DNA of 64,000 nucleotides from Leucosporidium creatinivorum (lineage: Eukaryota > Basidiomycota > Microbotryomycetes > Leucosporidiales > Leucosporidiaceae): assembly GCA_001600635.1 (NCBI GenBank), contig BCKL01000006.1, forward strand, positions 434,001 through 498,000, read 5' to 3'. Position 1 is the first letter of the stretch; the number at the start of each line of letters is the position of its first letter. The notes below the pieces were generated by a model that had not been told where the DNA came from, ran no database searches, and was given only the letters and a program-made list of their open reading frames with translations. Shown piece by piece: positions 36,422 through 64,000 of the stretch. The translations under genes were made by a program, and so were the position numbers.

Positions 36422-39400
36422 CTAGACGCTGAAGCTCCCCGTGATGCGAATGTCGCGAGACGAGGCGCCGATGTAGACCTTGAACTCGCCCGAGGGCACC
36501 TCCCAGGCCTGCTTGACGACGTTCCTGTGGGCGAGACGGGTCAGCTCTGCTCTCTTAAACGCGAACAACTGTACAGAGGCCAGCTCACCAAATAGACAGC
36601 CCCTTCTTGTTCAATTTGACCGAGACGGTCGATGAGGCGCCCTCTTTGAGCCAGGTGCGCTCGAAACCTGCGAGTTCAATGGGTCAGATCCGCAGCTTCG
36701 AGCAGTGAACATAAGTACGTACCCCTAAGCAGCTTTGGAGGCTCTCCGGCCGACTTGGGGAAGCCCTGTAGATGTAGAGGTGAGGTCAGTCTTAGAAGCT
36801 CGGCGAACGCTACACAGGTGCGCGAGTCGACTCACAAGATAGATCTGAGATACCTCATGACCGTCGACACCTCCGCTGTTCTTGACGACGAACGAGACCG
36901 TGTAGGCGTCGTCGTAGAGGCCGAGCGAGTGGACCGAGGAGCCGTCGTTGTTCCTCCGCTTCAGATCAGTCGACTTGACGCCGAGCGAGGAGTAGGAGAA
37001 GGTCGTGTAGCTGAGTCCAAAGCCGAACTCGTAGCGAGGAGTGATGTTCTTGGCGTCGAACCTGTTGAGGAGGGTAGCGATGAGCGCTGAGCGAGGCCTG
37101 AGAGAAGTGGGCGTAGCTCACCAGCGGTAGTCGATCTGAAGCTCCTCGCTGTAGGGGATCTGAGGAACCTCGAGGGAGCTGTTGGTGTCTGTTGCGGCGA
37201 CAGAACGTCAGTTGTGCTCTTCCGACGAGAAAAGCAAGAGCGCTCACAGACGACGTCAGCAGGGTAGTCGCTCCTTTTCTTGCCGATGGTGTAAGGAAAA
37301 CGACCAGAGGGGTTGACTGCGAAGGCGAGAACGAGGATGAGCAAGCTGACCTGACTCCGAAGCGAACGCGAGCGACCCACCCTTGCCGAAGAGGACATCG
37401 ACGAGCGAGTTGCCCGTTTCCTGGCCAGGAAGTCCGGCGTAGACGATGGCGGTGATGTTCTCGTGGTCGTAGAACGCCTCCATATCAACAGGACCGACGG
37501 TGTGCAGGACGACGACGGTGTTCGAGCAGTTGGCGGCGACGTTCTTGATGAGAGTCTCTCCTCCGTGCCAAAGCGTGAGGTTGTTGCGGTCACCCTCGTT
37601 CCCATCGAAGTTGACCTGTATATCCGATGCGTTGAGGAGCAAACAGAGGGCAGAGCGAGTGGCATGAGAAGGGATGAAGAGGAAGAAGGGCCGAAGTCGA
37701 GAGAGGTCAGCGACCTCGAACATCGTGCACAAGCAAGCGGCGAGACTCACGAATTGTTCTCCAGAGTTGCTGTTGGCGAAGACGAGGCAGTGGTCGACGA
37801 CTGAGGCGAGTTTGCCGACGCCTTCGTAGTCCCAGTCCTTCAGAAGTCCTTCGACGCCAGCGGTTGGGTTGGCAGCGAGGATATCACGTTGCAGGGCATA
37901 CAGAGGATCGATCAGATAGGGATAATTCGCAGTCCCTATGGAGAGGAGAGGGTTAGCCGAGGTTGGCGCCGAGAGGTGAGAGGGGCAGCGTAGCTCACCG
38001 CTGCCCCAGCCGACGGCGAGAGTTCCTCCCTCGTAAGAAGGTCGTCGATCCTTTCCGCCATTGGGTCCGTTCAGCAGAGGTCCAGCGCTGCGAGGCAAGG
38101 AAGATTCGGCCATGGTCAGCCTCGGTCGAGATGCGAAGGGGAGGGAGAGCTCACTCAGAGCCAAAGATGCCCCAGCGGTTGCCGGAGGACGGGTCGAGAG
38201 GAAGAGTATGGTTCTTGTTTTTGAGGAGGACGATGGAGGCGGCGCCAACCTCTCTGATCAGCTTGTAGTGATCGCCCTGCACGTTGACGTGCTCGTTGAC
38301 GAGCTGGCCATTGAAGTAGGTTGCGGTCGTCTGTCGGCTGTAGTTGGGAGGGGGGAAGTCCTTGTCTTGGCCCATCTTGAAATAGGCGGCGAACGCTGTG
38401 GGACAGAGGGAGAGGTGAGCTCGCTGTTGCGTAACCATCGCCGAGGGAAAGGACGACAACTCACTTCGCGTGACCATGTCCTCGACGCGGTGGCGAGGTA
38501 CAGAGCCGTTGTTGATGGCCTTGACGAGCTCTGCGCCCCAGTAGGAGGAGTTGGACTATGAGGGGTCCGACTGGTCGTCGAGGTTGCCGTAGTGACGGAA
38601 GCCGGGCTGTATGAGAGCAGGGAGACCTTGAGCCATGCAAGTGGAGCTCGGGGGAGGGACGATACACGTACCATATTCATGTCTAGACCGGCGAGAGCCG
38701 AATCGACGCCTGCAAGAGTTCGGAAGTCAGCGGCGCCGAGGGAGAGAATCGAGCGCGGAAGCTCACCCGAGATCGCAGCGGCCCAATCCGAGACGTAGAA
38801 GCCCTCAAACGACAGCTCCTCCTTGCCGAGACCGTTGAGGACCTTTGAGTTTTCGCAGGCTTGCGTCTGGTTGATGTGGTTGTAGGAGGGCATGATGGCG
38901 CCGACGCCAGCGCGAATCGATTCGGCGAAGGGCCAGAGCTAGAGGACGAGGGGAAGGTCAGCATCACACCCCAGGTGAAAGAGAAAGACCCGCGACAACG
39001 CACGTAAATCTCGTGCATAGTGCGGTCGCCGATATTGCTGGAGGAAGTCTGATTCGAATCGCTGCCGCCTCGAAAGTGCTCTTGCTCGTTGCCGATCAAG
39101 TGCTTAGCGGTAGCGATGACTCCCTGACTCTGGATGCCCTTGATCGTCTCGACCGCGGCGACACCTGTGAGGAAAGGATCTCCGCCGAACCCTTCCCAGC
39201 CTCGACCGGCGGCGGGAGCTCGGCCGAGGTTCATCATCGGCGAGAGAGCGACGTTGACTCCCTTGCCACGGAACTCGGCTCCCATGGCTTCTCCTCGCTT
39301 GCGGATGAGGTCCTTGTCCCAGGTCGCGGCGGCGTTAATGCTGAGGGAGATGGAGCTCAAAGTCAGCAAGAGTTCGGCGAAGGCTCTGGCCGCCTGAGCA

Positions 39401-39903
39401 ACGACTCACCCAGCAGGAAAGACGGAAACCAAATCGGCATGAAGAACTCCGAGGGGCGAGTCTTCGAGACAGAAGCCTCTGAAGCCCTTCCTGGTGATCT
39501 CTCCCGTCTGGCCGATGCAGCGACCGAAGAGACCTTGCCCTGTCGTGATGTTGACGAGCTCGAGGAGGGTTAGGTCGGCGACGTAGGCTTTCGCTTTAGC
39601 CACTGCATCCTTCCAGTCGCCTTCGCCAGAGAGGTTGCGAGCGGGGAGGACTGAGGGAGCGGAAGGTCAGCTCGGAGGTCGGTGAGACGAAGATTGCAGA
39701 GCTAACCAAGAGGTGAGACGCTATGGGAGAGCAGGGGGGGTTAGCTACATAGCTTTAGGACGTACTCCGAGGCCGACTCACTAGTCTGCATATGGTGCAG
39801 CGTCGGGCTGGCCGTTTTGGATGTTGAGCTCGACGGCGTCGGGTGATGTGCTCGCTAGGGCTAGAGCTGTCGCCGAAGCGAGCAGGAGCGTAGTCTTGAG
39901 CAT
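36422..39903 (-). CDS. secreted GH3 beta-glucosidase, left copy
   Basis: Signal peptide MLKTTLLLASATALALAS, then the GH3 N-terminal barrel: TGQGLFGRCIGQTGEI, FCLEDSPLGV, MMNLGRAPAAGRGWEGF, ATAKHLIGNEQEH (the KH pair) and the nucleophile region FEGFYVSDWAA with the catalytic Asp. The alpha/beta sandwich has GAASIVLLKN and AIVYAGLPGQETGNSLVDVLFG. The fibronectin-like C-terminal domain (YEFGFGLSYTTF, VVKNSGGVDGHEVSQIYL) is present, giving a full-length enzyme of about 850 residues in more than ten exons. The family releases terminal glucose from cello-oligosaccharides and glucosides. The left copy reads GVLHAD where the right copy and most relatives read GVR. Its 5' half lies in an inverted duplication. 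Confidence 0.93.
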
Positions 39904-40823
39904 GTTGGTGTAGCTCCGAGGTGTGAGAAGAAGGGAAGCAAGCTGCAGAGCGCGAGCCAAGGGGTTAGTTACTCGCTCGAGGTGGGGGAGCGCCGAGCTG
40001 GCCGACCGGCGCGCTCTACCGGCGTACAGCAATCGATCCGCGGTCCAGTTGGTACTCACCAACAACGGCTCCGTCGGGAGATCGCCTCAGAAGGGAGTCC
40101 GGCCGTACTAGCATCGCATGGGCAACGCTAAGCGCATCGAACCTCGCGGTCGCTTGCCTTGCACTCGAGTGGACGACAAGTAGATCATGTATCGACATTT
40201 AAACCGGCGTGAAGTCATTTTGTACAAGACGAGCATCTGCAGAGTCGCTCCGAGACGTGGTGGAGCTGTGCTGGACGAAGCTGGGAGGAAGAGGCAGAGT
40301 CGTGGACGTCGTTGAGGGAGGGTGGCTTGTGAGAGGTCATCTAGACGCTTAACCGAGGTGTCGAGAAATGCTGACTGCTGAGACGAGTGATGTCGAGAAG
40401 TGCGAAGGAGAGAAAGCCATTCGAGAGGCGGCTCCGTTTCGCTGTCGAATTGTTCGGCTCGACTAGCTTCAGCGAGCTGTAGGGGAGCAGTAGTGGAGCC
40501 TCTCAGGTCGCTGTGGAGCAGCTGCTGCTCCGGCGAACTCGCCAGCAGACTCTCTCTCGCTCTCTCGGCGCTCGCTTCGGCGCTTGTTCGGTGCTGGGGC
40601 AAGCTTGCACTTGGATACGTGACGACATTCACGGCAACAGGGGGTACTGAGAAAGAAGAAGGGGGGCTATACACGGGAGACTAGAGAGAAGCGAGGGGGT
40701 AATAGCGTCGACTTGGGCGAGCTTGAGGGGCTGCGCGAGAGAGAGGGAGCGGGAGAGAGAAGTGCGAGCACGTCAGTCAGTGCCGTCGAGGGGGTAGGAG
40801 TGGCGATCAGGGTCAACTCACCC
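39904..40823. other. intergenic within left arm
   Basis: GH3 promoter, with a likely 5'UTR intron just before the GH3 ATG, and the 3' flank of the HMG-like gene. The part at about 39990-40330 is strongly diverged from its counterpart in the right arm. No further gene was recognised. Confidence 0.4.
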
Positions 40824-41611
40824 TCACTTGTTCGCCTTGGGGTTGTCGGGGTGAGTCTGCGAGCGAAGGCGAGATGTCAGCTCCAGCCTCGCCTTCTCGG
40901 CGCTCGTCTTAGTTCGAGGTGAGAGAAGCTTGCCTTCCAGATCTCGCAGGCTGTAGAGCGTCAAAGAGACTGAAGGTCAGCTCTCCACCCGACTTCACTC
41001 CCACCGATCCCCCTCGCTATCCCCCGTCACTCGCTCGAACGACTCACCTTCGGCCCTCCTTTCGTTGCCGTCCATGTCGGGGTTCGTCTCCTTCAACTCT
41101 GCCATCTTGGCCTGTTTCGTGGGGTAGAGCGAGTCAGCTACAGTGCTGGAGGTGAAAGTGAGGACGAGAGGCCTTGCACTGAAGTACTGTGGGGAGGGGG
41201 CGGAGACGAGAGAGCATGGTCAGCTCGGCGAGAAGGCGAGGGATGAGAGCAGGGCAGCTCACAGTACGCCAAGCGCTCCTGGGAGTATCATCACTGTAGT
41301 AGATCAAAAAAGCGCGACGCGTCAGCTAGCCTATCCGCGCCGTCTCTGCCTCCTCCGTCTCGCCTGCAGCGGAGTAGCCGAAGCGGGGTGTCACTCACTC
41401 ATCCTTGTCCTTGGAGCTCTTGGTCTTCTTGGTGGTGGCTGTGGGTAGCGTGTGAGAGAGAGGTCAGCGTTCTGTAGCTCAATACGAGGGCGAGAGAGGT
41501 GAGACCTCATTGGCTGAGCGCTGAGAGCTCGTGATGAGGCGGAAAGCAGAGGGGAAGTTGTAGCGGAGTTGAGGAGAGCTGTACTCACGAGAAGTCTTGG
41601 TTTTGCCCATT
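40824..41611 (-). CDS. small HMG/YABBY-like chromatin protein, left copy
   Basis: Spliced protein of about 65 residues: MGKTKTS, a Lys-rich stretch TTKKTKSSKDKDE/D, then TPRSAWRTYFSAKMAELKET, NPDMDGNERRAEA and CEIWKTHPDNPKANK. A Lys-rich leader, an S-A-x-x-x-Y/F box and a W-K-x-x-P-x-N-P-K ending are typical of small fungal HMG/YABBY-like proteins that bind DNA without strong sequence specificity. Six exons are needed. One is a nine-base exon encoding YFS, and two introns start with GC rather than GT (after YFS and after WK). All splice sites are matched in the right-arm copy. The stop codon overlaps a good GTGAGG donor, so a longer C-terminus ending near 40690 is possible. Confidence 0.72.
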
Positions 41612-42058
41612 GTCAGTTGATAGAGCGCTGAAAAGTTGTAGGTGAAGAGCGAGAGGGTGTGCTGTGGCGTTGAAGAGAAGAGAGAGCGGAGAGGTGCGAG
41701 GGGAGGAGAGTCAGGTGAGCTGGTGAGGTTGAAGCTGTAGCTGAGTAGCTCTCTCACTCACCTGTAGCCTTGTAGAAGAGGGACGAGAGAAGAGCGAAAC
41801 TCGAGCAGTGAATGGTAAGAGCAAGAGAAGCGAAATCGACTTGCTCGCTCCCTTCTCGCTTCTCTCTCGTCTCTCTGCCTCGGCCTAGGGCTGAGCTCGC
41901 AAAGCCACCGCTCTTGACGCGACTGACTTCTGTAGTTGACCGCTTGCTGCTTCGTCTACACTTCCAACTGACCTCTATAGCAACTCACCACTTCTCAGCC
42001 GCTCCTGACGTCCACCAAAGCGAAAGCCGAGCAGCAAGAGCCGGCTCGCATACGCTTC

Positions 42059-42555
42059 CTGCTCCATCTTCGCGTCGAAGGGAGTCAAGGGACTGCGAGT
42101 AGGCTCTCAGACTACCTGAATGCCCACTGCTTGCTTCTGCTGGTCTGTTCTGCTTGTCAAACTCTTCCTGCGAAGCGACGCCGCGGTCGAAGGCCGAGGC
42201 GAGGACCGAGTGGAGCCCATCCGACTTTTTGAAGAGGTGCAGAGGTGTTGGATCTGATCAGAAGTACTTATTCTCGACTCACTTGATCTTACTACTAGCT
42301 TACGGCCCAGCTCTGCTCAAAAGGTGGCCATCTCAGCCCGTGATCGCTGCTCTCGCTCTTTCCCTCCGCACTTTATCTTCTGCTGTGAGTCGTCACTCGC
42401 TGAGGGTTGACCAAGCTACAGAAATACTAACGGTAGCTCTCATATACTTTCCCTGGCCTTACCAAACCCTACAACACACTCTACTCGATTGTAAATCGCC
42501 TCTCACGCAAACTCTCCCCTCGACTCTCAGCTCCTCCCCTCGCCGCTCCTGCACC
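42059..42555. promoter_or_regulatory. EMG1 upstream region with 5'UTR intron (42385-42436)
   Basis: Unique sequence right of the left-arm boundary. It contains a 52 nt intron with GTGAGT, an exact TACTAAC branch motif and a GGTAG acceptor. The frame is open from an upstream Met at 42154, but that would add a non-conserved extension. Confidence 0.5.
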
Positions 42556-43898
42556 ATGTCCAAGACGACTCTACCCACGACCATCTCGGCCCCTTTGTCG
42601 GTCTCTTCCCCTTCCTTCGTTCCCTCGGCCCAACTAGCAGCTTCCACCGCCGCTTCATCTTCCTTTGCCGCCTCATCCTCGTCGCGCAAGCGTCCCGCTC
42701 CTCCTTCCCCTCCCATGAACCCCACTTTGATCCCTTCAGCACCGAAACCACCAAAGTCCAACGCCGAAAAGGATGAGACTCGCAGGCTCATCGTCGTCCT
42801 CGAGCAGGCTTGCTTGGAGACGTACAAGCATTCGGCTCCGGCCAGCGCTCGAGGAGGAAAGAGCGAGGACAAGTACTCGCTCCTCAACTGCGATGACCAC
42901 CAGGGTGTACTTGCCAAGATGGGCAGGGACATTGCTCACGCTCGCCCCGACATCACTCACCAGGTTGGTTTGCATTTTCTTGCCGGTCGTTCGTTCGTCG
43001 AGCGCGAAGGCAGCTCGCTCGCTGGCCTTGGTCGGAGCGGAGGCAGTCACACGACTCGGCGGCAGGTGGCTGATCCTCTGCTTTCACTATCACAGTGCCT
43101 CCTCACCCTCCTCGACTCTCCTTTGAACAAGGCTGGCAAGCTGCAGGTCTACATCCACACCGCTCGCGGCGTCCTCATCGAGGTCAACCCTTCCGTTCGT
43201 ATCCCTAGGACGTTCAAGCGTTTTGGTGGACTCATGGGTGAGTGATGACCTGATGGTAGAGTCTCTTGGCCTTCTGACTGACCCTATGCTCGCCTACACA
43301 GTCCAACTTCTTCACCGTCTCTCGATTCGCTCCATCAACGGCTCCGAGAAGCTGTTGAAGGTCATCAAGGTGCGTTTGAGCTTTGTATAGCGTTTGGCCG
43401 CATCTGTATTGACTTTTCCTTCCCCTACAGAACCCCATCACCGACCACCTCCCCACCAACTCGCACAAGATTAGTGAGTCGGTCTTCGGCGTTGGGTTCT
43501 CTTTGCGCTGTACTGACCTTGACACTTTTCAACAGCCCTCTCCTTCGACGCCACCCCCGTACGATTGACCAAGTACCTCCCCACCATCCCCGACACTCAC
43601 TCCATCGTCGTCTTTGTCGGCGCCATGGCTCACGGGTCGGTCTTGTCCTCGCTTCTCGGCGGCAGAACCTTCGCTGATCTCAGATAAAATCTCTTCAGAC
43701 CCGACAACTTTGCCGACCACATGGTGGACGAGAAGATTGCCATCTCCGAGTACTCGCTCAGTGCCAGTGTCGCTTGCGGAAAGGTGCGCCGAGTTGCCCT
43801 CTCTTCGGGCCTTGCGCAACAGTAGAAGAGCTCTGCTGACCTTCCTCCGTCCACTACAGTTCTGCTGCGCCGTCGAGGACCTGTTCGATGTACTCTAA
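42556..43898 (+). CDS. EMG1: 18S rRNA pseudouridine N1-methyltransferase Emg1/Nep1
   Basis: SPOUT methyltransferase that methylates a hypermodified pseudouridine of 18S rRNA and is needed for small-subunit assembly. Conserved blocks are almost unbroken: [124 protein letters not shown]. The first 75 residues are a Ser/Pro/Ala-rich leader without counterpart. Six introns are inferred. The start at 42556 is chosen because it follows a 5'UTR intron and the sequence upstream is unlike the family. It is the first gene inside the segment bounded by the inverted repeat. Confidence 0.94.
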
Positions 43899-44786
43899 GC
43901 GGCATCTTCGCTCTCTCGGCGCTCCTCCCAGGACAGCCGCGACTGTACCAACATGATCATCTCCAACCACCTCGTCCGCCAGGCGCCGTCAACCGGCTCA
44001 CTTCGCTCACGACCTACATCTACTCTCCCTAGCCCCCCCTCTCGCCTATCGACACCTCGATCCTTCCTCTCCTCTCGGTTCTCTCCGACTTGCTCCCGCC
44101 CTCACTCTCTCGACTTCTTGGTTCGCTGTTGTAGTTCGTCGTGCTCTCAACGGTGCGCTCTGTAACGATATATTCTAGCTCCCTATCTCCGAGCGTGAGC
44201 GAACAGAGAGCAGGACCGAACGCAAAGCGAGAGCTCGGCGCAAGCTGCGAACCGGCCAAAGGGGACAAGGAGAGAGACCTCGCTTTCAAGTGCAGAAATC
44301 TCTACCCGAGAGAGGATTAGCTACAGAGCTCCTTGAGTGGTTAATCTGAGTGGTTAATCTGGCGCAGAATTGCCTGCTTTGGTGCAGTTGGAGTTTGGAG
44401 TCGCTCGCTGCCCTGGGCCCGAAGCGCTCGAGCGCTGCCCCTTGTTTCCCTCTTCCTTCACCTCGTTACGCATCTTCTCTCGCCTCGGACCTAAGCAGCA
44501 GGACTAGTAGAGTACTACACTGGTGAGCTGCAGCCTCTGCCTCAGACTTTGAACGAACGCTGAGCGTCTCCCTCCCTTCGCGCACAGCTCGCTTCCTTTT
44601 CCCTCTCTTCCACCACTCGCGCCCAACTCGCCAGTCGAAGCAAGGCAGGACCTTCTCGACCTTTTCAAGTTACGCGCTCTACTTCCCTACACCTAGTCGA
44701 CTACACCTCTACGGCCCTTGCTCCCTTCCCCTCTCGCGTCGCTCTCGTCTCACCTCAATCAACACCGCCCAACCGCCAAGCAAGCA
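43899..44786. other. intergenic, 888 bp, with a 13-bp direct duplication
   Basis: 3' flank of EMG1 and a long promoter for the membrane sensor gene. A 13-bp unit (GAGTGGTTAATCT) occurs twice head to tail at 44335-44360. The 200 bp before the next ATG are pyrimidine-rich on the plus strand, common in fungal 5'UTRs. No gene was seen. Confidence 0.45.
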
Positions 44787-46433
44787 ATGCGCACCTCGGC
44801 CGCCCTCCTCCCTCTGGCAGCCGTCGCTCTCCTCTCGGTCGTTACCGCTCATGATGTAGACCGTCAGCAGCAGCACCAGGCTCGTCACCTTCAACTCGCT
44901 GGCAATGGCGGAGGCGTGCGCTTGGAGAAGCTCGTGAGGAGGCAATCCCTCGTCAATGCCGCGCTTTCCCTCGCGGATCCTGCTGCCGATACACCGTGAG
45001 TACAACATCTCTCTTTGCTACGTTACACCAGAGCAGGCGCCTCCGAGATCTCGACTTGGAAACGAGGCACCTCGGCCGTTGCGCATCAAGGACGCGCGAA
45101 CCCCCTTCTTCAAGCTAACGATTCTGCTCGGTCTACAGTGCCGCTGCTACCACCCCGGCTCCCGCTGCGACTACTACACCGGCAGGCCCTGCCGCCGCCG
45201 TGACTACGAGTCAGGCTCCCGCTCCCCAGGACACCACTTCGGTCGCCGAGAAGAGCCCTGCTGCTCCGAGCACGACTCAGGCGGCCCCGGCCACCACCTC
45301 GGCGGCTACGACGGAAGCAGCTGCTCCTACCACTACTTCGGCCGCGCCCACGACCGAGGACAAGTCGACTGCTCCCGCCCCTGTCTCCTCCAGCGCCAAA
45401 GCTCCCGCGAACTCGCAGAGCAGCGCCGCCGATACGCAGCCTTCCAGCGTCGCGGGCGGGGTCGAAACCCTTACTTCCACTTCTGTCGACTCGGCGGCGA
45501 AGCAGAGTGGAACGTCCAGCTCTTCGGCCGCCAGTTCGAGTGCTACTTCGGGCGAGGACAAGTCGTCCGGAAAGTGAGTTTCAGGTTTGGGCCGGGCGGC
45601 AGAGAATATGCGCTGACTTCTCTCGATATCTCAGGAGCTCCGGTATCAACAAGCCCACCCTAATCATCATCATCGTGAGCTCCCATGCCGGCGCCGAACC
45701 TCATCTCACCGAGCCCTCTCGCTGACCCTAACTCACAAACAGGTCGTCGCCTCCTCCATCGCCCTCGTCGCCGCCATCTGGACTATCGTCCGCAAGACGG
45801 CCTTCTCCCCTTCCCGCCGCTTCGAAGCCAAGCTCGCCCCCATCTCCTTCGGCACCGGCCGCCGGGACCAAGATTCCTTCGACGGCGGAGCGGACGCCAT
45901 TCTCGCGCACGAAAGGTCGGGCAGTGTGATGAGTGGACAGATGAGCGAGAGGCAGGGGCCTAACGCTGGCTATGCGGCAAGCTTGGGGAGGAGCGACAGT
46001 GGGAAGGGAAGCTTGAGGACGACGGGCAGCATTCGAGGAGGAGGAATCCCGTACAACCCTCAGCCTACGGCGTACAGCGGACCTGCCTACTACCAGCAAC
46101 CTTACCACGGCCAGTCGCAGCAGCAGCACTTTGGCGGCGCTCAACGTGAGTCTTTAGTCCTCTCGCAAATCCAACCGTGTCCCTCCTCTATCCCTCCCCC
46201 TCCCCCGTGCTATCCGCTCCAGCGCTGACTCATCATCTCCCCCTCCACCAGCCGGCTACCCCTCGGAGCAAGCTTTCGGCTACTCGAACCTCCAACGCGG
46301 CGCCTCGTCGCGCACCGACCTCTCGCGCGGCACCTCTGCTCGTCAACCCGCCACGCCCGCCGGAGCGTACGACTACGCGGCGCAGCAGCGTGCCATGGCG
46401 CAGAGCAGGTCGCAGAGCCGTGGACCTTACTAG
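44787..46433 (+). CDS. mucin-like single-pass membrane protein, cell-wall-sensor type
   Basis: Signal peptide (MRTSAALLPLAAVALLSVVTA), a short charged part with a possible Kex2 site (LVRRQS), then about 170 residues almost wholly Ser/Thr/Ala/Pro, expected to be heavily O-mannosylated and rod-like. One transmembrane helix follows, split by an intron (PTLIIII then VVASSIALVAAIW). The cytosolic tail of about 190 residues is rich in Gly/Ser/Gln/Tyr, with RSQSRGPY at the very end. This is the architecture of Mid2/Wsc-type stress sensors of the wall-integrity pathway, but there is no WSC Cys domain and the tail is not recognisable. Four introns are inferred. The function is inferred from layout only. 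Confidence 0.7.
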
Positions 46434-52157: not shown

Positions 52158-53414
52158 CTACAGATGCTTCTGGATGAAAGCGTACATTCTATCCAAAGTA
52201 ACATCCTTGCTCATGTCAAACAGATGGTCCTCCCCCTCTCGAACCTCGAACTCGTGCGAAATTTCCCTCGCCTCGAGAGCAGCCACAACGTCCTTTGACT
52301 GCTGGATGGGCACCTTGTCGTCGATACTGTGAAGTAGAAGTCAGCGCGCTGCTTCTTCGCCGCCCCACAGCAACTCACGTTCCGTGGACGATGTAGGTCG
52401 GAGGCGCCGAGAACTCGCCCGAGGCGAGAGCGGGCGCGATGCTGAAGGCTTCTGGAGCGACACCAGTGCCGTCAAGTAGAAGGCTGGGAAGTAGAGCTCT
52501 GTAGGTAGATCTCGGTAAGATTGTGGAGCGCATTTCGTCTCGAGCTCGGCTTACTCCTGGACCTGCGGAAGAGACCAGTCGAGTTAGAGCCGACGAAGAG
52601 CAATGCGACAGAAGTAGAACAAACCATGTAGTGATAGAATACTGATCGGGGACTATCCGAGGCCGAGGAGGCGGAAGGTGGCGCCTCGGGGTCGAGATAC
52701 TCGGCGAGCTCGCTGCTCTCGACACGCCGAGGGAAGTAGGTGACCTTCTCCTGGAAGCGGGAGCGGTCAGATAGCTTTGCGACCGTCACTCACTACCTCC
52801 ACCTACCTGCTTGGTGTTCCAGAAAGGGTCAAGGAGGTCCGAGATGGGGTAGATGGCTGCGACGACCGAGGGAGCAGCAGGTGGCTCAATTCCGCACGCC
52901 TTGAAGCCGACACCAGTACCAGCGAGGAGAGCTAGCCATCCACCAGCGGATCCGCCACTGACTGCAAGCTTGGAACTGTCGACACGGTGCCCAGTTGCCT
53001 CGGCGAACTCGGGCGAGCGAATGAAGACCATGGCCGCCTTGATGTCCTCCATGATCTGGGGCAGCCTCACTTGAGGGGCTAGCCTGTAGTCGGCCGAGAT
53101 GAATGCCAGTCCGTGCTTCTCGGGAGCGGCGTTGAGATGAGGCCAGGAAGCTGCAGGGCGGGGAGGATCAGCTACCGGCGATGGCGGAGGAGAGTTGGCT
53201 TTAGTCTCACCTTTGCGCGTGCCCTGCAGCAATCCTACGGCAGTAGCCGGTCAGATCCATCTAAGAAACGAAAGTTCCGCCCTCACTCACCTCCTCCATG
53301 CCACCAGAGTAGCGCGGGAGCTGGCGCAGCGGCTGTTGCGTGGGAGGGAATGGTCACGTCCAGCTTGATCTCGAGGCCATTGACGGTAGAGAATACCAGC
53401 TCTTGTGCTGCCAT
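52158..53414 (-). CDS. alpha/beta hydrolase (hormone-sensitive-lipase-like, fold 3)
   Basis: Esterase/lactonase-type enzyme. Motifs in order: WWHGGG (oxyanion hole), FISADYRLAPQVRLPQIMEDI, VSGGSAGGWLALLAG (nucleophile elbow, G-G-S-A-G-G), AAIYPISDLLDP, VHGTIDDKVPIQQ (acid Asp) and GEDHLFD (catalytic His), ending AFIQKHL. The triad is complete. Length is about 330 residues in seven or so exons. The start at 53414 (MAAQELVFSTVNGLEIKLDV) fits the usual N-terminus; the frame is open upstream without resemblance. No signal peptide, so cytosolic. It is divergent from the FAD monooxygenase, with a shared 464 bp promoter, as expected if both act in one pathway. Confidence 0.9.
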
Positions 53415-53878
53415 CTTGTCGATCAAATGTGAGACGAGAGCAGAAGAGCAGTGTGAAGGGCGAGAGGTCAAGAGAGGCGACTCGCTTCCCTTCCCCCACT
53501 CCTCTTCCTCCTCCTTCGCCGCAACAAGGACGGCTCGCTCAGCAGGCATAGCATGGACTAGTAGTACCATCCACCCCTAAAATCAGCTCGCCCGACGTGC
53601 TACACCTCCTTGCCGCCTAAACGGCCTTTCATCCGCGCCCTCAACGGCCGAGCGTTGCGAGAGCCCTCCCCGAAGCCGAGCTGAGATCGTGGGCACGGTT
53701 GGAGCGATTCCCCGCATCTCGCAAGATAGCAGACTCGGGAACGGACTCCGTGGCAGTTCCACGGCTTTCGTAGAGACCCCCGTCAACCTCCGCCTCATCT
53801 CTCTCCCTCTCCCTTCTCCTCGCTCGCCAACACGAAGGAATCCGCTGCATCTCACCTCAGACCACCGAAGAACAACAC
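53415..53878. promoter_or_regulatory. divergent promoter, hydrolase / FAD monooxygenase
   Basis: This 464 bp region lies between two cluster enzymes and is a likely target of the Zn2Cys6 regulator at 56.4-59.7 kb. I did not find a convincing pair of CGG half-sites with conserved spacing shared with the other cluster promoters. Confidence 0.4.
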
Positions 53879-56170
53879 ATGTCACCCGCTCTGCTGCTAG
53901 AACCGCTGAAAGCTGATGTGGTGGTGGTTGGTGGAGGTCCCAGTGAGTCCAGCATTAGCGGCGAGCTGTGAGCTTCTCCGAGGTCTGAGCTGACCTCCCT
54001 GCACGCACGCGCAGTCGGCCTCCTAGTCGCCTACCAGCTCGCTCGCTTCGGCGTAGAGCCCTACATCGTCGAGCAGGACGACAAGCCTTCGGCGCCTATC
54101 TACGGCCGAGCTACGACTCTGTGGCCTCGTTCGCTAGAGCTGCTGGACGCGCTAGGACTCGGAGATCATCTACTAGCGCGAGGCGTCGTCAGCAAGACCG
54201 GCGTCAACTTCAGGCAGTGAGCTTCGGCGTTCGTCTCATGAACCGAAACTCGGCGCTGACCCCTTCTCCTTGCAACAGCGGCAAGAGCGCACCAGGAGGC
54301 CTCGACTTTGCTCAAAGGATGGACCGTCATGGCGATACTCGCTACCAGTTCGCGCTGCACATGCGCCAACGCCTCACCGAGCGCGCCTTCGAGCAGGGAC
54401 TCGACGACCTCGACTACAAGGTGCACCATCAGCACAAGCTGCTCTCCTGGGTTGAAGACGACGAGACTACGACTAGCGATTACCCTGTTCGATGCACAAT
54501 GCAGGCGCAGGACGGCGCAATCTACGAGGTCGAATGGTGAGCGCCGAGCTGGCTAATGCCCCCCCTCTGAGCTCTGATCAGACGTTGACATTCTCCTGCA
54601 CTTGTCAACTGCAGCAAGTACCTTGTCGGCGCAGATGGAGGCAAGTCACCCGTCCGCAAGGCCGCCAAGATTCCCTTCCTCGGCGAAGGCAACGGCGCCA
54701 AGTGGGTTCGAATGGATGTTAGTACCATCTCTCCTCGCTTGCAGCTTGAGCAAACAGAGCTGATCGTTTCTTTTTGACTCACAGGCCCTCGTCAAGACGA
54801 ATATGCCCCTCTGTCGGCAGCTGAACTCGGTTCAGTCCGAGAACCACGGACTCGTCCTCTTCGCCCCCATCGACGCTGGCAGGACACGGATCGGCTACGT
54901 CTTCTCCAAAGACTTGCAGGAAAAGTACGGCGAGGATGGTGTGGTCTCGGAGGAAGTGGCGATGGCTGAGGCGAAGAAGGCGGTCGCGCCGTTCGAACTC
55001 GAGTTTGTCAAGGTCGATTGGGTCACGCTCTATGTATGTTCCGGGCTGGTGGCTGTCGCAAGAGCCTGCTTTGACCTTGCTGTCGCTGCTTGTGCTGACC
55101 CTCCTACCGCTGCAGGGTATCGGCCAACGCATCGCATCGACCTTCATCCACGGCCGAGTGATCCTTGCCGGCGACTCGGCGCACACTCACAGTAGTGGTT
55201 CGGCGCAAGGGCTCAACACGGGAACATTTGACGCTACCAACCTCGCTTGGAAGGTGAGCTGTCACTCGACCCGCTCGGCGCAGAACTCGCTAATGCTCTC
55301 GTGCCGATAGCTCGCTCTGGAGATCCGAGGATTGGCCAAGAAGTCACTGGTCGACAGCTACGACGACGAGCGTCGAGCAAGTGTGCAGCAAGTCATCGAC
55401 AACGACGTCATCATCTCCTCGCTCATCTCGGGACAGCTACCGCCCAAGTTTGCTGGTCGAACCGAGAACCCTCGGTCAGTCGGCTGTCTCGCTCTCGAGG
55501 AGAACGATTGCTGACGGTGGTCGACCACAGGGACATCCTCACCGAATGGTTCAGCAGCTCCACCAACCAGCTTTTTACCCTCGGTCTCGGCGTTTCGTAT
55601 CGTGAGTCGCCTCGCCTCGCTTCGCTTGTTCCCTCCCTCGAGCTCACGCCGCGCTCTCCAGCCTCCTCCAACCTCCTCAACCGCGAGACGCCCGACTGGC
55701 CTACGTCCACCGTCATCCCTGGCCAGCGCGGTCCGGATTGCAAGGTCTCTCGCGTCGGCACAGCGGAAGCGGTCTGGCTTCAACGCATTCTCACCAATTG
55801 CGGCAGCTTCAACCTCGTCGTCTTCACCGGCGACACTTCTCGCACTCTCCCCTCTCTACAACACCTTCAAACACACCTCGCCAGCGACAAGAGCTTTACC
55901 AAGCGCTTCCCGGCGCGCAAGCTCTTCCGCTTCACCACCATCATCCTCGGCGAGGGAATTGGCGCGGAGGAGTACAGCGGGATCGCTCCTTTCGGCGTCC
56001 CCTACTTCGACCCTCTACGAGTAGCGCACGAGACCTACGGTGTGGACACGACGAGAGGAGCGTTGGCCGTCATCCGGCCAGATGGATATGTCGCAACGGT
56101 CGTCGGGCTCGAGGAAGCGAGCGTGTTGAGCGATTACTTTGCACGCTTCCTCGTAGAAGGAGCGCTTTGA
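53879..56170 (+). CDS. FAD-dependent aromatic hydroxylase (phenol 2-monooxygenase family)
   Basis: Class A flavin monooxygenase of about 630 residues. The FAD-binding Rossmann motif spans intron 1: VVVVGGGPIGLLVAYQLAR, followed by VEPYIVEQDDKP and RATTLWPRSLELLDALG. The middle has CKYLVGADGGKSPVRK (the DG motif for FAD/NADPH) and GRVILAGDSAHTHSSGSAQG with LNTGTFDATNLAWKLA (the GD motif). The C-terminal thioredoxin-like domain typical of phenol hydroxylases is present (RPDGYVATVVGLEEAS). These enzymes use NADPH and O2 to hydroxylate phenolic rings. About ten introns are inferred; whether the short GC-rich stretch near 55602-55661 is spliced out is unclear. It is central to the putative catabolic cluster. 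Confidence 0.9.
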
Positions 56171-56183
56171 TTAGCTGGCGGGT

Positions 56184-56367
56184 TAGTTCACTCTCGGCGT
56201 CGGCAGCAATGTTAATCCTAAGGACGATTTGCTGTATTGCGTTAGACTGAAGCTACCCAAGAGTTTCGTCTCTCGCAGCGAGCTCGACTAGTTCACTCTC
56301 GGCGATAGCAGCGAGCCAGCAATCGAGACGGGCATGCTACATTACGCCAGACTGAAGCTACCCGAGA
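56184..56367. repeat. imperfect tandem duplication, about 80-bp units
   Basis: Two diverged copies at about 56184-56264 and 56290-56367. Both begin TAGTTCACTCTCGGCG and end AGACTGAAGCTACCC followed by A/G-AGAGT. The second copy overlaps the last codons of the Zn2Cys6 gene. A related fragment (TCACTCTCGGAGATAGCAG) occurs in an intron of that gene near 59077. Confidence 0.6.
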
Positions 56368-59300
56368 GTACTCATGCCACTATGATCAAACTGAGCAAGA
56401 TCTACGAAACCAAAGTTGCCGTCTAGCCCGTCAAGATCGCCCGAGAAGAGCTCGGCGAGCCCTGAAGCGGCGTGGATGCCAGGATAGGTCGGGAAAGTGT
56501 AATTGTTGGAGCCTCCGTAGCTTCCGCCGTTGAATCCTTGAGGCTGTAGACCCATGGAGGGCATTGGCATCGGCGAGTTGGGGTCGAAAGCTGGGCGCGA
56601 CGGCGAGGGGACGGAGCCGCTGGGGCTGTGGCGAGCTTCCTGCTGCGTAGTAGCTTGGAGCTGGAGAAGGGGAGTCAGTAAATGGGAATTCATCGAGGAG
56701 CGGAGGAGAGCTGACGAGGAGCCTGTTCACCACTTGGCGGAAGGGGTCTTCGGTCGACTCGCCGTCGATTCGGCGCCGCTTGTTGCCCTTGCCAGGAGGG
56801 CTGATCTCCTGCTCGGCGGCTGTGGGAGATGACGTCGATGTTAGCGCGAGTTAGCTGTACTGAGATACCGACGCCTTACCCAACAAGCCCTGCAGCAAGG
56901 AGATGGCGTTGCGAGCGGCGGCGCTCGTTTGTTCTCCGTGTCTAAGAAGGCGGGTAACATCAGCGATGAGCCGGAGCGGAGAGAAGACGCGAGCACTCAC
57001 TTGAAAAGAGCTACCGTCTCGTGTAGTGCAGCACGAGTGTCGTCGTTGGGGTTGCGAGTGAGGTCGATGAAGGCGACGATGGACTGTGCAGAAGGAAGAT
57101 CAGCTCCAGCTCGGGCTTGTAGCTGATCAGACACATGGCTGATCTGGGCACGTACAGCGACAAATCCGTAGAACAACACGAGCCACAGTTTGAAGAGATC
57201 TGGCGCCCGCTGACCAGCAATTTGGAGCAGCATGAGGACCGACCTCGCCGAGGTGACGCAGCGGTTCGTCGAGGCAGCGTAGTGCTTGTCGTGGTAGCCA
57301 CGCATGAGGTACGGTCGATGCAGGCGAAGGTGTCGATTGGCCGCGGTGATGCGGATGAGGATGCACTCCTTCTCGAGGTTCGGGAAGCGCGAGTCCCGAG
57401 GCGAGTCTTGGGCGTTGGCAAAGTAGGGCGGGAAGGAGGCGATGAGCTCGCAGATGCGAGTGTCCATGCTGATGAGTGGTAGTAGGGTCAGCTTCGATCG
57501 AAAATCCTCCACCGAGATAGAAGCTGACTTGATGATGAAGCCGTAGTCGGCGGGCTGTTGTTCGTTGAGATGGTCGACGAAGCAGCGATAGAGCGTGACA
57601 AACTGAAGCTTGAAGATGGACATGGAGGACTCCTGGGTATCGAGGTGGTCAGCGCTCGTTCTCGGCCGAAGACTCATCAGTCGAAGCTCACCGTATACTC
57701 GGTCATGGGTCGCTCGAAGTACTCGTCGCCCATGTCTTCATCGTTGACATTCGAAGGCGGTGCGGTGTGATTTTGCGAAGGGTGAACGCAATACGTTCCG
57801 TTGTCTGCGAGAGCTTTTGGGTCAGCGGAAGAGCGGCGGCGAACGAACAGCCGAACTCACGAGCTTGCGCATGACTCCAATCGAGAGTGACGAGGTTCCA
57901 CCACACCCTCCTTCCCGTCTCGCGAGTGCGGAAGCTCTTCCATGCTGGGGGCCACTTCTTAGAGGCGCTTTCGGCGCCGAGGCGAGAGAGGCCGAGGTTC
58001 TGCGCCACCTTGATCGCCGTTCCGAGTAGACTCCAGTGGACGTCGGCCTCGTCATCGACGTTGTACGAGTAGACGCCCATCAATCTGTGAAATGGGAGTC
58101 AGCTTTCGCAAAGCTGAGCTCGTAAGCGGCTGAAGCGTACGTAACCGCCTGCAGAAACTCGAGCGAGGGCGTCCTGAGCCAGTCGGACGACCACAGTAGC
58201 GAGGTTGCCGAGGTGAACAGGGTGTTTGCGAGGTCGGCCGCCTGCTCGCCTGAGAAGCCGAGCGCGGCTGCCTCCGGCGCTTCGATAAGGTGCAAGGCGA
58301 TGCAGAGAACGAGGAGATAGCAGCAGAGGAAGGATGGTCGAGCTTGTCGAACAGCTTCGTGTGGAGGAAGGGCGAGGATCCGTTCGGTCTAGGGAAATGG
58401 ACTCGAGTCAGCGCCGAAGCCCCCGAGTGAGAACGACGAGACAAAGTCACCTCGGCGATGAAGGAAGGCGCATGGAGAGACTTGGTGTACCACTCGTGAC
58501 GGTTGAAGTAGGTGCGAACGAGCATCAGGCTTCTCTGTGGATCGATGATGAAGGGGTGGTTCGGCGCGAGACCTCGGGGCTCGGGCGAGGAGGGGTAGGG
58601 AGCTGCCGTGTGTTCGGGGTTAAGCTGCCGGCTGATCCGCATAGCGTTCTGACTGAACCCCATCGCAAAGTCCTCGAGCATAAGCGCGACCTCCTCCTCT
58701 TCTGGCTGCCCCCGTTCAGCTCGTGCATCTGAGCGAGTTGCGATGGGCTGTTGGCCGCGCTCAGCTCTCGGGTCTGCGCGAGAGGGGATGGACTGGCGAT
58801 GCTCGGGTGGAGGAGGCTGTACGACGACGACGGCGGGAGATGAAGAGATGGAGGCTGCTGCCCCAGGCGAAGCGGTCGCTGGTGTGGCTTCGGCGGCCGA
58901 GCTCCCCTCCAGACGGGCGACCGTGCGCTGCAGCGTACGAACTACATCTTCCAGCGTAGCCATTCGTCCAGTGAGCGTGTCGTAAAGGGCGGGGGTCAAA
59001 GTCGACTCGGGTCGTTCACAGGTAGCCTCGTCGCCGCGCATGGTGCACCTGGGAGGACGTTGGTTAGCCGGCGAGTCACTCTCGGAGATAGCAGTGAGCC
59101 ACACGGAGTGCAAGGATACACGCGATCTGTGGTGATGCAGTCTAGTCAGCGCCGAGCGAGTCTCTCCTCGTCCCTCAACGACTCCGAATCAGCGCCGAGC
59201 GAGTCTCGCTTCGCCCAGCGACTCACCACATCGTACTTTGCGGCGCTTGCATTCTGCACACGACTGAATGGCACGTCTGCCTGGAGGAGGAGGTGGTCCG

Positions 59301-59714
59301 CCTAGTGTACAGCACCAAGTTAGTCTCTGATGGACGAGAAACGCTCGCTCAAGACGCACCGGCCCGTTCTTTCTTAACCGAAGACGTCGACCGAGCTGGA
59401 CCAGAGTCTATTTTTGAGCGAACGTAGACAGTTAGCTTCCACTCCCTCACAGCCGCCTGAGCGGAGGCTGCTTCTGTCCCAGCGTGAGCTGTGACCGCCT
59501 GCCTCTCCTTCCCTCTCCCCTCCAACGCTGCTGAGCTCCTCCGCTGCTCTGGTCCAGCTCGCAATACGATCGCAGACCACTCACCCGAGTGATCCACGCT
59601 CCCATTAGCGCTCTCTGCCCTCTGTCGCGACACTGAAGGGCCTGCTTCGACTGGGAGCGAGCTGTGTCGCCCTTCCGCCGTCTGGTACTGCTGAGGTGGT
59701 GCTGTTCCGTTCAT
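56358..59714 (-). CDS. Zn2Cys6 (Gal4-type) transcription factor with fungal_trans domain
   Basis: The first exon (59714 to about 59363, MNGTAPPQQYQ) is a disordered leader ending in VKKERA. Exon 2 supplies SCAECKRRKVRC and exon 3 with exon 4 DRVYPCTPCTMRGDEATC. This completes the six-cysteine Zn2C6 cluster at about residues 131-160, provided a donor GTGTGG near 59117 is used. A coiled dimerisation region follows (LTGRMATLEDVVRTLQRTVA). The long middle region, in many exons, has SLMLVRTYFNRHEWYTKSLH and VWWNLVTLDWSHAQA, typical of the fungal-specific transcription factor domain. The C-terminal 100 residues are Gly/Pro/Ser-rich with acidic pieces, a likely activation domain. It sits between the monooxygenase and cupin genes, which suggests pathway-specific control. 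Confidence 0.87.
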
Positions 59715-59894
59715 GAGTCGTCCAGTAGGCTAGATACGAGGTTGTAGGCGATTCTATGCTCCGTCTGGGAAGCTTATCGCGTTCGGGGTCCGACGAAGCG
59801 GAGGGAGAGCGAGGACGGCCGTCTCGCCCGAGAGCGTCGACTTGGCCTTCGAGGCTTGTTCTCCTGCCTTACACAGGTGAAAGGAGGAAGCACG
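59715..59894. promoter_or_regulatory. short divergent promoter, Zn2Cys6 regulator / cupin
   Basis: Only 180 bp separate the regulator ATG from the cupin ATG, so the two are almost certainly co-controlled. No named site was recognised. Confidence 0.4.
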
Positions 59895-61047
59895 ATGGGA
59901 CTCTTCTACACTCAGGTGAGCTGCCCCTGCTCTGCCATCACACTACAACGTTCAGCCGACGCTCCTTCCCATCCTCGCTATCTCCGCTGACTCTCATCTT
60001 CTACAGCCCAAGCTTCAAGCTCCCGGACGTGAAGCAGACGGCTCGTGGGTCTTTTTTGACGGAGCGTTCAAAACTTTCTTCATCTCGGGTGACAAGGAGC
60101 ACTTCACTTCGCGCCAGGTGAGCTCAGCTTCCGGCAACGACTACCCTTTCTCCCTCTCATCACTCGGTGCTGCTGCTGGGACCGCTCGATAGCCTACAAT
60201 ACATCTCTTTCCACCCCCCACTGGTCCCCACGCGGCGCCTTCCCGACTCAGTTTCGAGCAGAGCGCCGACCGAGCCGAACGACCCAGCGCTGACCTCTCG
60301 CTCCTTCCTTCAAACGCAGATTTTCACTCCCAACAATCCCTACACCGGAAACGGACGAGCTTCCATTGCTACCCCTCCCTACCACACCCATCTCTACCAA
60401 ACAGAGACATTCGACGTCAAGTCGGGAACCCTGGCCTACTGCATTGACGGCAAGGAGGGCACTCTCGAGGCGGGCCAAAAGACACAAATCCCACCTTTTG
60501 TCCCCCATACTTTCTGGAATGGATCGACCACGGAGAACCTCGACGTGCACATCACCGTTCGCGGCGGAGACAACCCAGGTCAGTCCTGCGGAGGAGGGAC
60601 TAGCCGTCACGGGCGAAGTGGTCGAAAAGTATACAACTGACTCACTCTTCTGCTCCCTGTCGCTTTACAGGCTTCGACGAGACCTTCGTGCAGTAAGCAC
60701 TCTCTCGGACTGCTCGGCGCTTCGGCGAAGCTCGTTCAGTGCGCGTGCTGACCTCCAGCGCCTTCCGCAGCAACTTCTACGGCTACTTGAGCTCGCAAAC
60801 CATGCAAGGGCTAGCACCCAACCCCTTCCAAATGCTCCTCTTCATGTACTCGGCGGACGTGATCCTGATGGACATTCCCTTCGGCCTCGGATCGTGGGCC
60901 AACCTCATTGCTGGTTCGGCTGCTGATCTCTCTCGCGGTGGATATACTTGCTGACGCTCACATGGCTACCCTACAGGCAAGCTTGTCGGACAGAACGTCC
61001 TAGGAATGAAGGCCGAGTATAAGGAGTTCTCGGACGAGTCCGAGTAG
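59895..61047 (+). CDS. metal-binding cupin-domain protein
   Basis: Spliced from exons starting MGLFYTQ, then PKLQAPGREADGSWVFFDG, IFTPNNPYTGNGRASIATPP and a cupin core. Cupin motif 1 is complete: H-T-H, four residues, E, six residues, G (YHTHLYQTETFDVKSG). Motif 2 is G-x5-P ... H-x3-N (GQKTQIPPFVPHTFWN). The three His and one Glu make a full metal site. The C-terminal part (GLAPNPFQMLLFMYSADVIL) is hydrophobic and helical. Length is about 240 residues and six introns are inferred. Cupins include ring-cleaving dioxygenases, isomerases and decarboxylases. Here a step after ring hydroxylation is a reasonable inference, but the exact reaction is open. No signal peptide is seen. Confidence 0.82.
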
Positions 61048-61299
61048 GGCTGTAGCTGGATTAAAAGGTGTAAACTGAAGTGCTCGGTCTCTGCTCTTCT
61101 TGTCTCTCACTCGGCGACTGGACATGCACTCGCGAGTACAGCCGGCCGAGGGAAGGTTTGGTTTCGGTGCAGCTTCTGCTTCCCTGGCGGAGCTTTTGGG
61201 GGTGCACAGGGCGAGCAGAGACCAGCTATCGGAGGCGTCCGCATCTCTAGGTAACGGACTTCGTGGCTTGCTCATAGCTGAGGCCAGTGGTCGAGCGCG
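61048..61299. other. 3' flank of cupin gene up to right-arm boundary
   Basis: Unique sequence of about 250 bp between the cupin stop and the point where similarity to the left arm starts. No gene was seen. Confidence 0.4.
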
Positions 61300-61746
61300 A
61301 AGCGTATGCGAGCCGCTCTTGCTGCTCGACTTTCGCTTTGGTGGACGTCAGGAGCGGCTGAAAGGTGGAGAGATGCTACAGAGGACAATTAGAAGTGGAG
61401 GTAAAGCAGCAAGCGGTCAACTACAGAAGTCAGTCGCGTCAGAGCGGTGGCTTTGCGAGCTCAGCCCTAGGCCGAGGCAGAGAGACGAGAGAGAAGCGAG
61501 AAGGGAGCGAGCAAGTCGATTTCGCTTCTCTTGCTCTTACCATTCACTGCTCGAGTTTCGCTCTTCTCTCGTCCCTCTTCTACAAGGCTACAGGTGAGTG
61601 AGAGAGCTACTCAGCTACAGCTTCAACCTCACCAGCTCACCTGACTCTCCTCCCCTCGCACCTTTCCGCTCTCTCTTCTCTTCAACGCCACAGCACACCC
61701 TCTCGCTCTTCACCTACACCACTCTCGAACGCGCACTCAAACTACA

Positions 61747-62537
61747 ATGGGCAAAACCAAGACTTCTCGTGAGTGCTACTCTCTCAGCCTGCGGTACAGC
61801 TTCTCTCGTCGCCAAAGCTGCTCCTCATCAGGAGCTCTCGCCGCTCAGCGGAGACGACGACACGTCACCTGTCGCGCTCGTATTGAGCTACAGAACGCTG
61901 ACCTCTCTCTCACACGCTACCCACAGCCACCACCAAGAAGACCAAGAGCTCCAAGGACAAGGATGAGTGAGTGACACCCCGCTTCGGCTACTCCGCTGCA
62001 GGCGAGACGGAGGAGGCAGAGACGGCGCGGATAGGCTAGCTGACGCGTCGCGCTTTTTTGATCTACTACAGTGATGATACTCCCAGGAGCGCTTGGCGTA
62101 CTGTGAGCTGCCCTGCTCTCATCCCTCGCCTTCTCGCCGAGCTGACCATGCTCTCTCGTCTCCGCCCCCTCCCCACAGTACTTCAGTGCAAGGCCTCTCG
62201 TCCTCACTTTCACCTCCAGCACTGTAGCTGACTCGCTCTACCCCACGAAACAGGCCAAGATGGCAGAGTTGAAGGAGACGAACCCCGACATGGACGGCAA
62301 CGAAAGGAGGGCCGAAGGTGAGTCGTTCGAGCGAGTGACGGGGGATAGCGAGGGGGCTCGGTGGGAGTGAAGTCGGGCGGAGAGCTGACCTTCAGTCCTT
62401 TTGACGCTTCACAGCCTGCGAGATCTGGAAGGCGAGCTTCTCTTCTTCACCTCGAGCTGAGACGAGCGCCGAGGCTGGAGCTGACGTCTCGCCTTCGCTC
62501 GCAGACTCACCCTGACAACCCCAAGGCGAACATGTGA
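61747..62537 (+). CDS. small HMG/YABBY-like chromatin protein, right copy
   Basis: Same exon layout as the left-arm gene: MGKTKTS, a Lys-rich exon (TTKKTKSSKDKDE), DDTPRSAWRT, the nine-base YFS exon, AKMAELKETNPDMDGNERRA and CEIWK, ending THPDNPKANM. The two GC-AG introns are present here too (AGT followed by GCAAGG, and AAG followed by GCGAGC). The only coding difference noticed is the last residue, Met here and Lys on the left. Intron 1 is strongly diverged from the left copy, whereas introns 2-4 are almost identical. As on the left, the stop overlaps a GTGAGG donor. Both copies look intact, so either or both may be expressed. Confidence 0.72.
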
Positions 62538-63459
62538 GGGTGAGCTGGCTCTGATCGCCACTCCTACCCCCTCGACGGCACTGACTGACGTGCTCGCACT
62601 GCTCTCTCCCTCTCCCTCGCGCAGCCCCTCAAGCTCGCCCGAGTCGACGCTATTACCCCCTCGCTGGTCTCTGGTCTCCTATGTATAGCTCCCCTTCTTC
62701 TTTCTCAGTACCCCCTGTTGCCGTGAATGTCGTCACGTATCCAAGTGCAAGCTTGCCCCAGCACCGAACAAGCGCCGAAGCGAGCGCCGAGAGAGCGAGA
62801 GAGAGAGTCTGCTGGCAAGAGCGACGAGGCAGCAGCTGCTCCACAGCGACCTAAGAGGCTCCACTACTGCTCCCCTACAGCTCGCTGAAGCTAGTCGAGC
62901 CAAATAATTCGACAGCGAAACGGAGCCGCCTCGCCCCTCAAACGGCTCTCTCTCCTTCGCATCTCTTGACATCACTCGTCTCAGCAGCCAGAATTTCTCG
63001 ACACCTCAATGAAGCATCTTCCAGCTCTTCCTACACCCCACGACTTCCACTTTCAGCCCTACAAGATCCTCCGCCGACAAGTGCCTTTCGACGCGCCAGC
63101 GGCTCCCTCCTCCTGCCATCGCTACCGGGCTAAACGGCGCTTCTCAGGATCACCTGTAGTCCTGTTCTGATGTGATCCACCTCCCCACTCCTCAAGGTGG
63201 GCCACCGCGAGGTTGAAATGCTCGCTAGCGTTGGCCCTCCGCACTAAGACCGGAGTCCCTCCTTCACCGAGCGAGCTGCCCGCCGGAATGAGCAGAGGAA
63301 TATGGGCCGCGCATCGATCGCTGTATACCGGCAAGTCTGTTGTACAGCGACCCGGTCGGTAAACTCGGCGCTCCCCACCTCGAGCGACAGACACTAACCC
63401 TTGGCTTTGCCGCTCTGCAGCTTGCTTCCCTTCATCTCACACCTCGGAGCTACACCAAC
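62538..63459. other. intergenic within right arm
   Basis: Mirror of 39904-40823. It includes a possible 3'UTR intron after the HMG-like stop and, near its end, a GH3 5'UTR intron (CACTAACCC ... CTGCAG). The GH3 promoter part is the most diverged section of the two arms. No gene was recognised. Confidence 0.4.
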
Positions 63460-64000
63460 ATGCTCAAGACTACGCTCCTGCTCGCTTCGGCGACAGCTTT
63501 GGCTTTAGCCAGCACTACACCCGATGTCGTCGAGCTCAACATCCAAAACGGCCAGTCCGACGCTGCACCATATGCAGACTAGTGAGTCGGCCTCGGAATA
63601 CGCTCTAAAGCTATGTAGCTAACCCCCCCCTGCTCTCCCGTAGCGTCTCACCTCTTGGTGAGCTCTAGCTTTCGTCTCACCGACCTCCGAGCTGACCTTC
63701 CGCTCCCTCAGTCCTCCCCGCTCGCAACCTCTCTGGCGAAGGCGACTGGAAGGATGCAGTGGCTAAAGCGAAAGCCTACGTCGCCGACCTTACCCTCCTC
63801 GAGCTCGTCAACATCACGACAGGGCAAGGTCTCTTCGGTCGTTGCATCGGCCAGACGGGAGAGATCACCAGGAAGGGCTTCAGAGGCTTCTGTCTCGAAG
63901 ACTCGCCCCTTGGAGTTCGTCATGCCGATTTGGTCTCCGTCTTTCCTGCTGGGTGGGTCGTCGCTCAGGCGGCCAGAGCCTTCGCCGAACTCTTGCTGAC
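63460..64000 (+). CDS. secreted GH3 beta-glucosidase, right copy (3' end outside window)
   Basis: Signal peptide MLKTTLLLASATALALAS, then TTPDVVELNIQNGQSDAAPY, differing from the left copy at a few residues (T/S, V/A, S/P). The following exons match the left gene: SPLVLPARNLSGEGDW, TGQGLFGRCIGQTGEI, GFRGFCLEDSPLGV. It reads GVRHAD, keeping the Arg that most GH3 enzymes have in this motif, whereas the left copy has Leu. The donor after SPL is GTGAGC here and GTTAGC on the left. The sequence leaves the window in the intron after VSVFPAG, before the catalytic Asp, so whether the full enzyme is present is unknown. Confidence 0.9.

Follow-up and report, generated by a model that had tools for sequence, protein, structure and literature searches.

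The inverted duplication described here lies in a 64,000-nucleotide stretch of Leucosporidium creatinivorum DNA, hereafter the window, which corresponds to C6:434001-498000 (C6 being contig BCKL01000006.1) in an assembly of 27.7 Mb in 63 contigs. Coordinates without a prefix are those of the window. Two arms of about 5.65 kb (left) and 5.71 kb (right) are separated by a 19.2-kb spacer, and each carries two complete genes, one for a 71-amino-acid HMG-box-like protein and one, with 17 exons, for a family-3 (GH3) beta-glucosidase. Identity between the arms is patchy in a manner that probably reflects an old duplication followed by non-allelic gene conversion.

The inverted arms and their genes

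The left arm occupies 36414-42064 on the reverse strand, and the right arm runs on the forward strand from 61293 to the window end at 64000 and on to window coordinate 67002 (C6:501002). Both were delimited by self-BLAST and alignment, and the outer edge of the left arm was seen again in a later genome search. Within the window, self-BLAST returned the inverted pairs 40343-42064/63019-61293 (92.1% identity, E = 0) and 39362-40047/64000-63303 (91.3%, E = 0), which confirms the inverted duplication that a sequence-only reading had placed at 39362-42058 and 61300-64000, with arms of at least 2.7 kb around a spacer of about 19.2 kb. Extension of the right arm in the assembly, a check proposed in that reading, showed the arms to be about twice as long. 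With sequence beyond the window end included, the 39362-40047 block grows to 38666-40047/64696-63303 (87.4%), and two further blocks match, namely 36414-37618/67002-65798 (90.7%) and 37744-38609/65749-64856 (74.0%). The right arm stops 3.0 kb past the window, within the same 1.24-Mb contig. Over their whole length, the arms are 86.0% identical in 5524 aligned columns, with 313 gapped columns set aside. The earlier description of the arms as collinear within a few bases is correct for the part it referred to but fails over the full arms, where the longest indels measure 102 and 74 columns and where left 40349-40020, at 50% identity to the right arm, can hardly be aligned.

When the genome was searched with the left arm in three overlapping pieces covering all of it, the DNA-level matches were the two arms only, with no third copy. 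A transposon-borne inverted repeat, which would be expected in many copies, was considered and set aside on this count of two. A wider original duplication was also sought by comparing translated frames of at least 60 amino acids from an 88-kb neighbourhood with the same DNA plus 9 kb more, and no additional homology between the arm flanks was found; the sole other pair was inverted and involved an exon of the lytic polysaccharide monooxygenase family AA14 at 48.7-49.3 kb and C6:519134-519741.

The HMG-box-like gene lies upstream of the GH3 gene on the same strand. Its left copy (40824-41610, reverse strand) is open in a by-eye model of seven exons encoding 71 amino acids, the right copy (61747-62537, forward strand) is likewise open, and the two proteins differ at one of 71 residues. 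Pfam matches to HMG_box (PF00505, E 3.7e-4) and Ccdc124/Oxs1 (PF06244, E 1.7e-4) both narrowly miss the curated cut-off, and the name is accordingly tentative. Two introns, 40933-40857 and 41177-41112, are apparently of the GC-AG rather than the GT-AG type in both copies of this model.

The GH3 gene was thought in the sequence-only reading to be repeated as a 5' half together with the same neighbour. The same two genes are indeed present in both arms, but the whole GH3 gene is repeated, and it had appeared halved because the window ends there. The left copy spans 36422-39903 on the reverse strand, and the right copy runs on the forward strand from 63460 to 64000 and on to 66994. Both share one splice structure, and all 17 exons agree in phase. 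The right copy is open, encodes 809 amino acids and contains the Pfam GH3 N, GH3 C and Fn3-like domains; its best match in the PDB is 5ju6 (E 6.4e-214), and its top solved relatives are beta-glucosidases. The left copy, in the by-eye model, carries an in-frame stop at codon 325 of 810 in exon 7, at about 38558. The genome search likewise reported a stop in this exon for the left copy, whereas it reported no stop for the right copy.

The mosaic of identity between the arms

In steps of 50 columns, arm identity alternates between 98-100% and much lower values, down to about a third. Across all columns, introns included, the longest difference-free runs are 480, 223 and 140. Silent-enriched columns, comprising noncoding positions and GH3 third positions with gapped columns dropped, number 3688 and contain 683 differences. 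Their longest difference-free run is 336, compared with a maximum of 77 among 20,000 permutations, and 0 of 20,000 permutations reached the observed longest run, top-5-run or window-variance value. Exclusion of the hardly alignable left 40360-40020 again gave 0 of 20,000, with a permutation maximum of 91. Silent-site identity is thus clustered beyond what a single divergence rate produces, as also seen in hidden Markov models (HMMs), for which the Bayesian information criterion is 2922 with two states and 2918 with three, against 3543 for one rate.

The tracts so delimited, given in left-arm coordinates, alternate along both genes. Upstream of the HMG-box-like gene, the HMM places a near-identical tract at 41634-41952, where 1 of 318 silent-enriched sites differs. 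HMM and alignment together define an identical 480-bp tract at 41009-41488, covering HMG exons and introns (0/336). In the 5' part of GH3, a near-identical tract at 39076-39691 (10/279, three-state HMM) is followed by an apparently unconverted core at 37592-39073, where 299 of 754 silent-enriched sites differ and synonymous divergence (dS) is 0.93, and then by a similar tract in the 3' part of the gene at 36863-37589 (24/345, two-state HMM). Tracts with about 40% silent difference thus abut identical ones. The noncoding counts are also uneven, with one difference in 294 sites upstream of the HMG-box-like gene, 1/337 in its introns and 0/99 on its downstream side. Around its exon 1, by contrast, 45/143 sites differ, in the HMG-GH3 intergenic DNA 157/314 and in the GH3 core 168/434. 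Across four successive blocks of GH3, dS is 0.113, 0.931, 0.147 and 0.268. A four-state HMM assigns 0/260 and 0/336 differences to two tracts, whereas other noncoding blocks among the similar tracts differ by about 2 to 9% in the block counts.

The stop in the left GH3 copy is situated in the unconverted core. The ratio of nonsynonymous to synonymous divergence (dN/dS) is 0.15 for GH3 overall and 0.12 in the core. By the latter value, both copies stayed under constraint during most of the time since they separated, which makes a recent origin of the stop probable. The left copy is therefore a probable recent pseudogene, judged on sequence. Against all nine structures ranked first (5ju6 to 6jxg), the right copy outscores the left (716 vs 707 bits for 5ju6), although the reverse is true of 4i3g (196 vs 201); these scores are weakly suggestive of relaxed constraint on the left copy. 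A protein search of the genome with GH3 returned one more locus, on contig C12, which is distant (36-43% identity) and hence too far to serve as a silent-site outgroup.

Probable gene conversion and competing explanations

Recent conversion after an old duplication best explains why introns and upstream DNA show no differences for hundreds of bases next to a core with dS near 0.9. A block containing the HMG-box-like and GH3 genes would have been copied in inverted orientation to a site 19 kb away on the same chromosome by an old segmental duplication. Non-allelic gene conversion would later have carried sequence between the arms in several tracts, probably more than once, as the unequal difference rates among the similar tracts suggest. 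Overwritten tracts would then look young, while the GH3 core and the HMG-GH3 intergenic DNA would retain the old divergence, and the left GH3 copy would lately have gained its stop within that core. We hold this account to be correct with a probability of roughly 0.9. If so, overall identity is misleading, as a pair that at first appeared about 92% alike would be an old duplication (core dS about 0.9) rejuvenated in patches.

Several points weigh against this account. Conversion is deduced from a comparison of two sequences with no outgroup arm, and two arms alone give neither the direction nor the number of conversion events. The borders of the dS and noncoding blocks were drawn after the identity plot had been viewed, though the permutations and HMMs are independent of them. 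The GH3 and HMG-box-like gene models come from splice sites followed by eye and comparison of the copies, without transcripts. A local assembly error might conceivably have copied one arm into the other. Finally, of four further paralog pairs on C6 that were plotted for identity, all of them local, two (C6:60613/67309 and the AA14 pair) lack an internal mosaic.

These four pairs comprise three of the six low-copy pairs of at least 150 bp and at most 50 kb apart found in C6:1-200000, plus the AA14 exon pair. The six are too few for any orientation bias to be claimed, four being inverted (one of them a palindrome at the contig end) and two direct. Patchwork was seen in two of the four plotted pairs. 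One is the inverted pair C6:101254-102957/121049-122751 (spacer 18 kb), in which about 400 bp at 100% identity lie amid 56-96%, making it a likely second conversion locus on sequence grounds; the other is the direct pair C6:183297/184552, with identical stretches next to much lower identity. With one such pair in each orientation, local conversion in this genome is supported and inverted orientation is not required for it. The inverted 1.9-kb pair C6:60613-62540/67309-69236 (99.6% identity, 4.8 kb apart) is uniformly 97-100% identical along the plot, and otherwise only a partial copy near C6:96.4 kb was found. The AA14 exon pair (48688-49297 and C6:519134-519741; 610 bp, inverted, 93% identity, 36 kb apart) ranges over 83-100% without internal contrast.

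Three rivals to gene conversion appear improbable to a similar degree. The first is an assembly or haplotype artefact, in which a single locus was placed twice or two haplotypes were joined, and the same assembly does contain a suspicious palindrome, as the first 1137 bp of C6 recur inverted at C6:4155-5291 with 100% identity. This perfect pair covers, by eye, the 3' end of a glutamine synthetase gene and is possibly a fold-back assembly artefact. The arms studied here, however, differ by 8-26% per aligned block and by many indels, so they are too diverged to be explained by an artefact of the contig-end type. Each arm also has its own outer and inner neighbours, with the left arm sitting between a dUTPase exon (outer; frame 35592-36380, reverse strand, PF00692, E 9.9e-10) and EMG1 (inner), and the right arm between a cupin gene (inner) and ORC4 (outer). 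Moreover, three 3-kb queries outside or at the edge of the left arm (8001-11000, 26001-29000 and 34001-37000), which sample 8.4 kb of the 36.4 kb to its left, each matched nothing but itself, apart from a match of the third to the right arm that begins at 36414. In these samples, the assembly is therefore not haplotype-redundant. Queries of 18.2 kb from 1-36400 gave only matches below 100 bp but missed their own place too, and are thus a weak negative. The artefact, which the sequence-only reading had itself raised, accordingly seems very unlikely.

Another explanation, given equally little credence, is that a single duplication was followed by uneven purifying selection, in which constraint alone preserved the identical stretches and the arms exchanged nothing. 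The low overall dN/dS of GH3 does show the exons to be under selection, yet the identical tracts span the introns and upstream DNA of the HMG-box-like gene while GH3 dS reaches 0.93. If an old duplication had been followed by a second, recent and partial one that substituted pieces of one arm, an equal patchwork of old and young tracts would result, but several separate in-register replacements would be needed, which is gene conversion in all but name, and the whole left arm found no third copy at the DNA level; this scheme is as improbable as the preceding one. Least credible of all is a programmed switch of the kind that inverted repeats form at the flip/flop mating-type loci of yeasts, which the enclosure of about 19 kb and the HMG-type gene in the arms might bring to mind, since the HMG-box-like gene, the only HMG-type gene seen, encodes a near-identical protein in both arms and so offers no alternative alleles, and a mating-type gene was not recognised among the exons scanned, though no systematic search for one was made.

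The enclosed segment and comparison with known systems

The enclosed unlike segment (42065-61292) is bounded by EMG1 and the cupin gene, as originally read, both being confirmed by Pfam searches of single exons as the inner neighbours of the arms. Between them lie an AA14 exon, an MFS-like (major facilitator superfamily) transporter, an assignment that is weak at E 0.0014 and below cut-off, an alpha/beta hydrolase and a phenol-hydroxylase-type FAD monooxygenase. The genes from the AA14 monooxygenase to the cupin exons are grouped at 49.0-60.9 kb and look like an aromatic-catabolism cluster. The suggestion that this cluster arrived with one arm found no support, as the enclosed DNA is about equal in G+C to its surroundings and includes the housekeeping gene EMG1. 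When the enclosed segment was searched in the genome, only the AA14 exon and a dispersed repeat were found elsewhere, a weak negative because long queries can lose strong matches and this one missed its own place. The repeat (47212-48385, about 1.2 kb) is sharply bounded in the three long copies that were compared and recurs at no fewer than 38 other sites on many contigs, at 73-91% identity (39 of 58 candidates were scored). Some copies match only about the first 585 bp, and terminal inverted repeats were not seen.

The assembly holds one orientation of the 19.2-kb segment. The sequence-only reading had raised recombination between the arms and a segment that may exist in both orientations; the mosaic supports continued recombination between the arms and in this way makes inversion plausible. 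Conversion between inverted repeats is at times resolved by crossover, which inverts the intervening DNA, as has been proposed for the flip/flop region of Saccharomyces (PMC9731477), and occasional resolution of this kind between the arms would invert the segment here. That the segment, with EMG1 and the apparent aromatic-catabolism genes, flips recurrently in this species, because conversion maintains full identity in short parts of the arms despite the survival of much old divergence, is a tentative proposal that we consider rather doubtful. Were it true, a partly decayed, patchily homogenised repeat would suffice for lasting inversion polymorphism. The locus supplies exact junctions where inversion could be sought, and, with one broken and one open GH3 in a converting pair, it also offers a compact place to study conversion against pseudogene formation.

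This type of feature is known, while the place is new. None of the titles found in a literature search concerned this locus, but the search was made without the species name and so says little. Human Y palindromes (Shi et al. 2019, PMC6790999) similarly have gene-bearing inverted arms kept alike by conversion, but on a mammalian sex chromosome. The mating-type flip/flop of Ogataea polymorpha also involves inverted repeats around about 19 kb of one chromosome, although there a regulated inversion chooses between two MAT loci (PMC5720833, PMC4238957). Homogenised inverted repeats occur in yeast at the centromeres of Candida tropicalis as well (PMC7292649), whereas the repeat described here is genic. 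The nearest precedent found is the flip/flop region of Saccharomyces chromosome XIV (Salzberg et al. 2022, PMC9731477), in which gene-bearing, kilobase-scale inverted repeats (4.2 kb, against 5.7 kb in L. creatinivorum) enclose a segment of 24 kb, compared with 19.2 kb here, and are proposed by its authors to be homogenised by gene conversion. In Saccharomyces, however, the two arms hardly differ, and each orientation has been shown among strains and species, whereas the L. creatinivorum arms are homogenised in patches, include one broken gene copy and are known from one assembled orientation.

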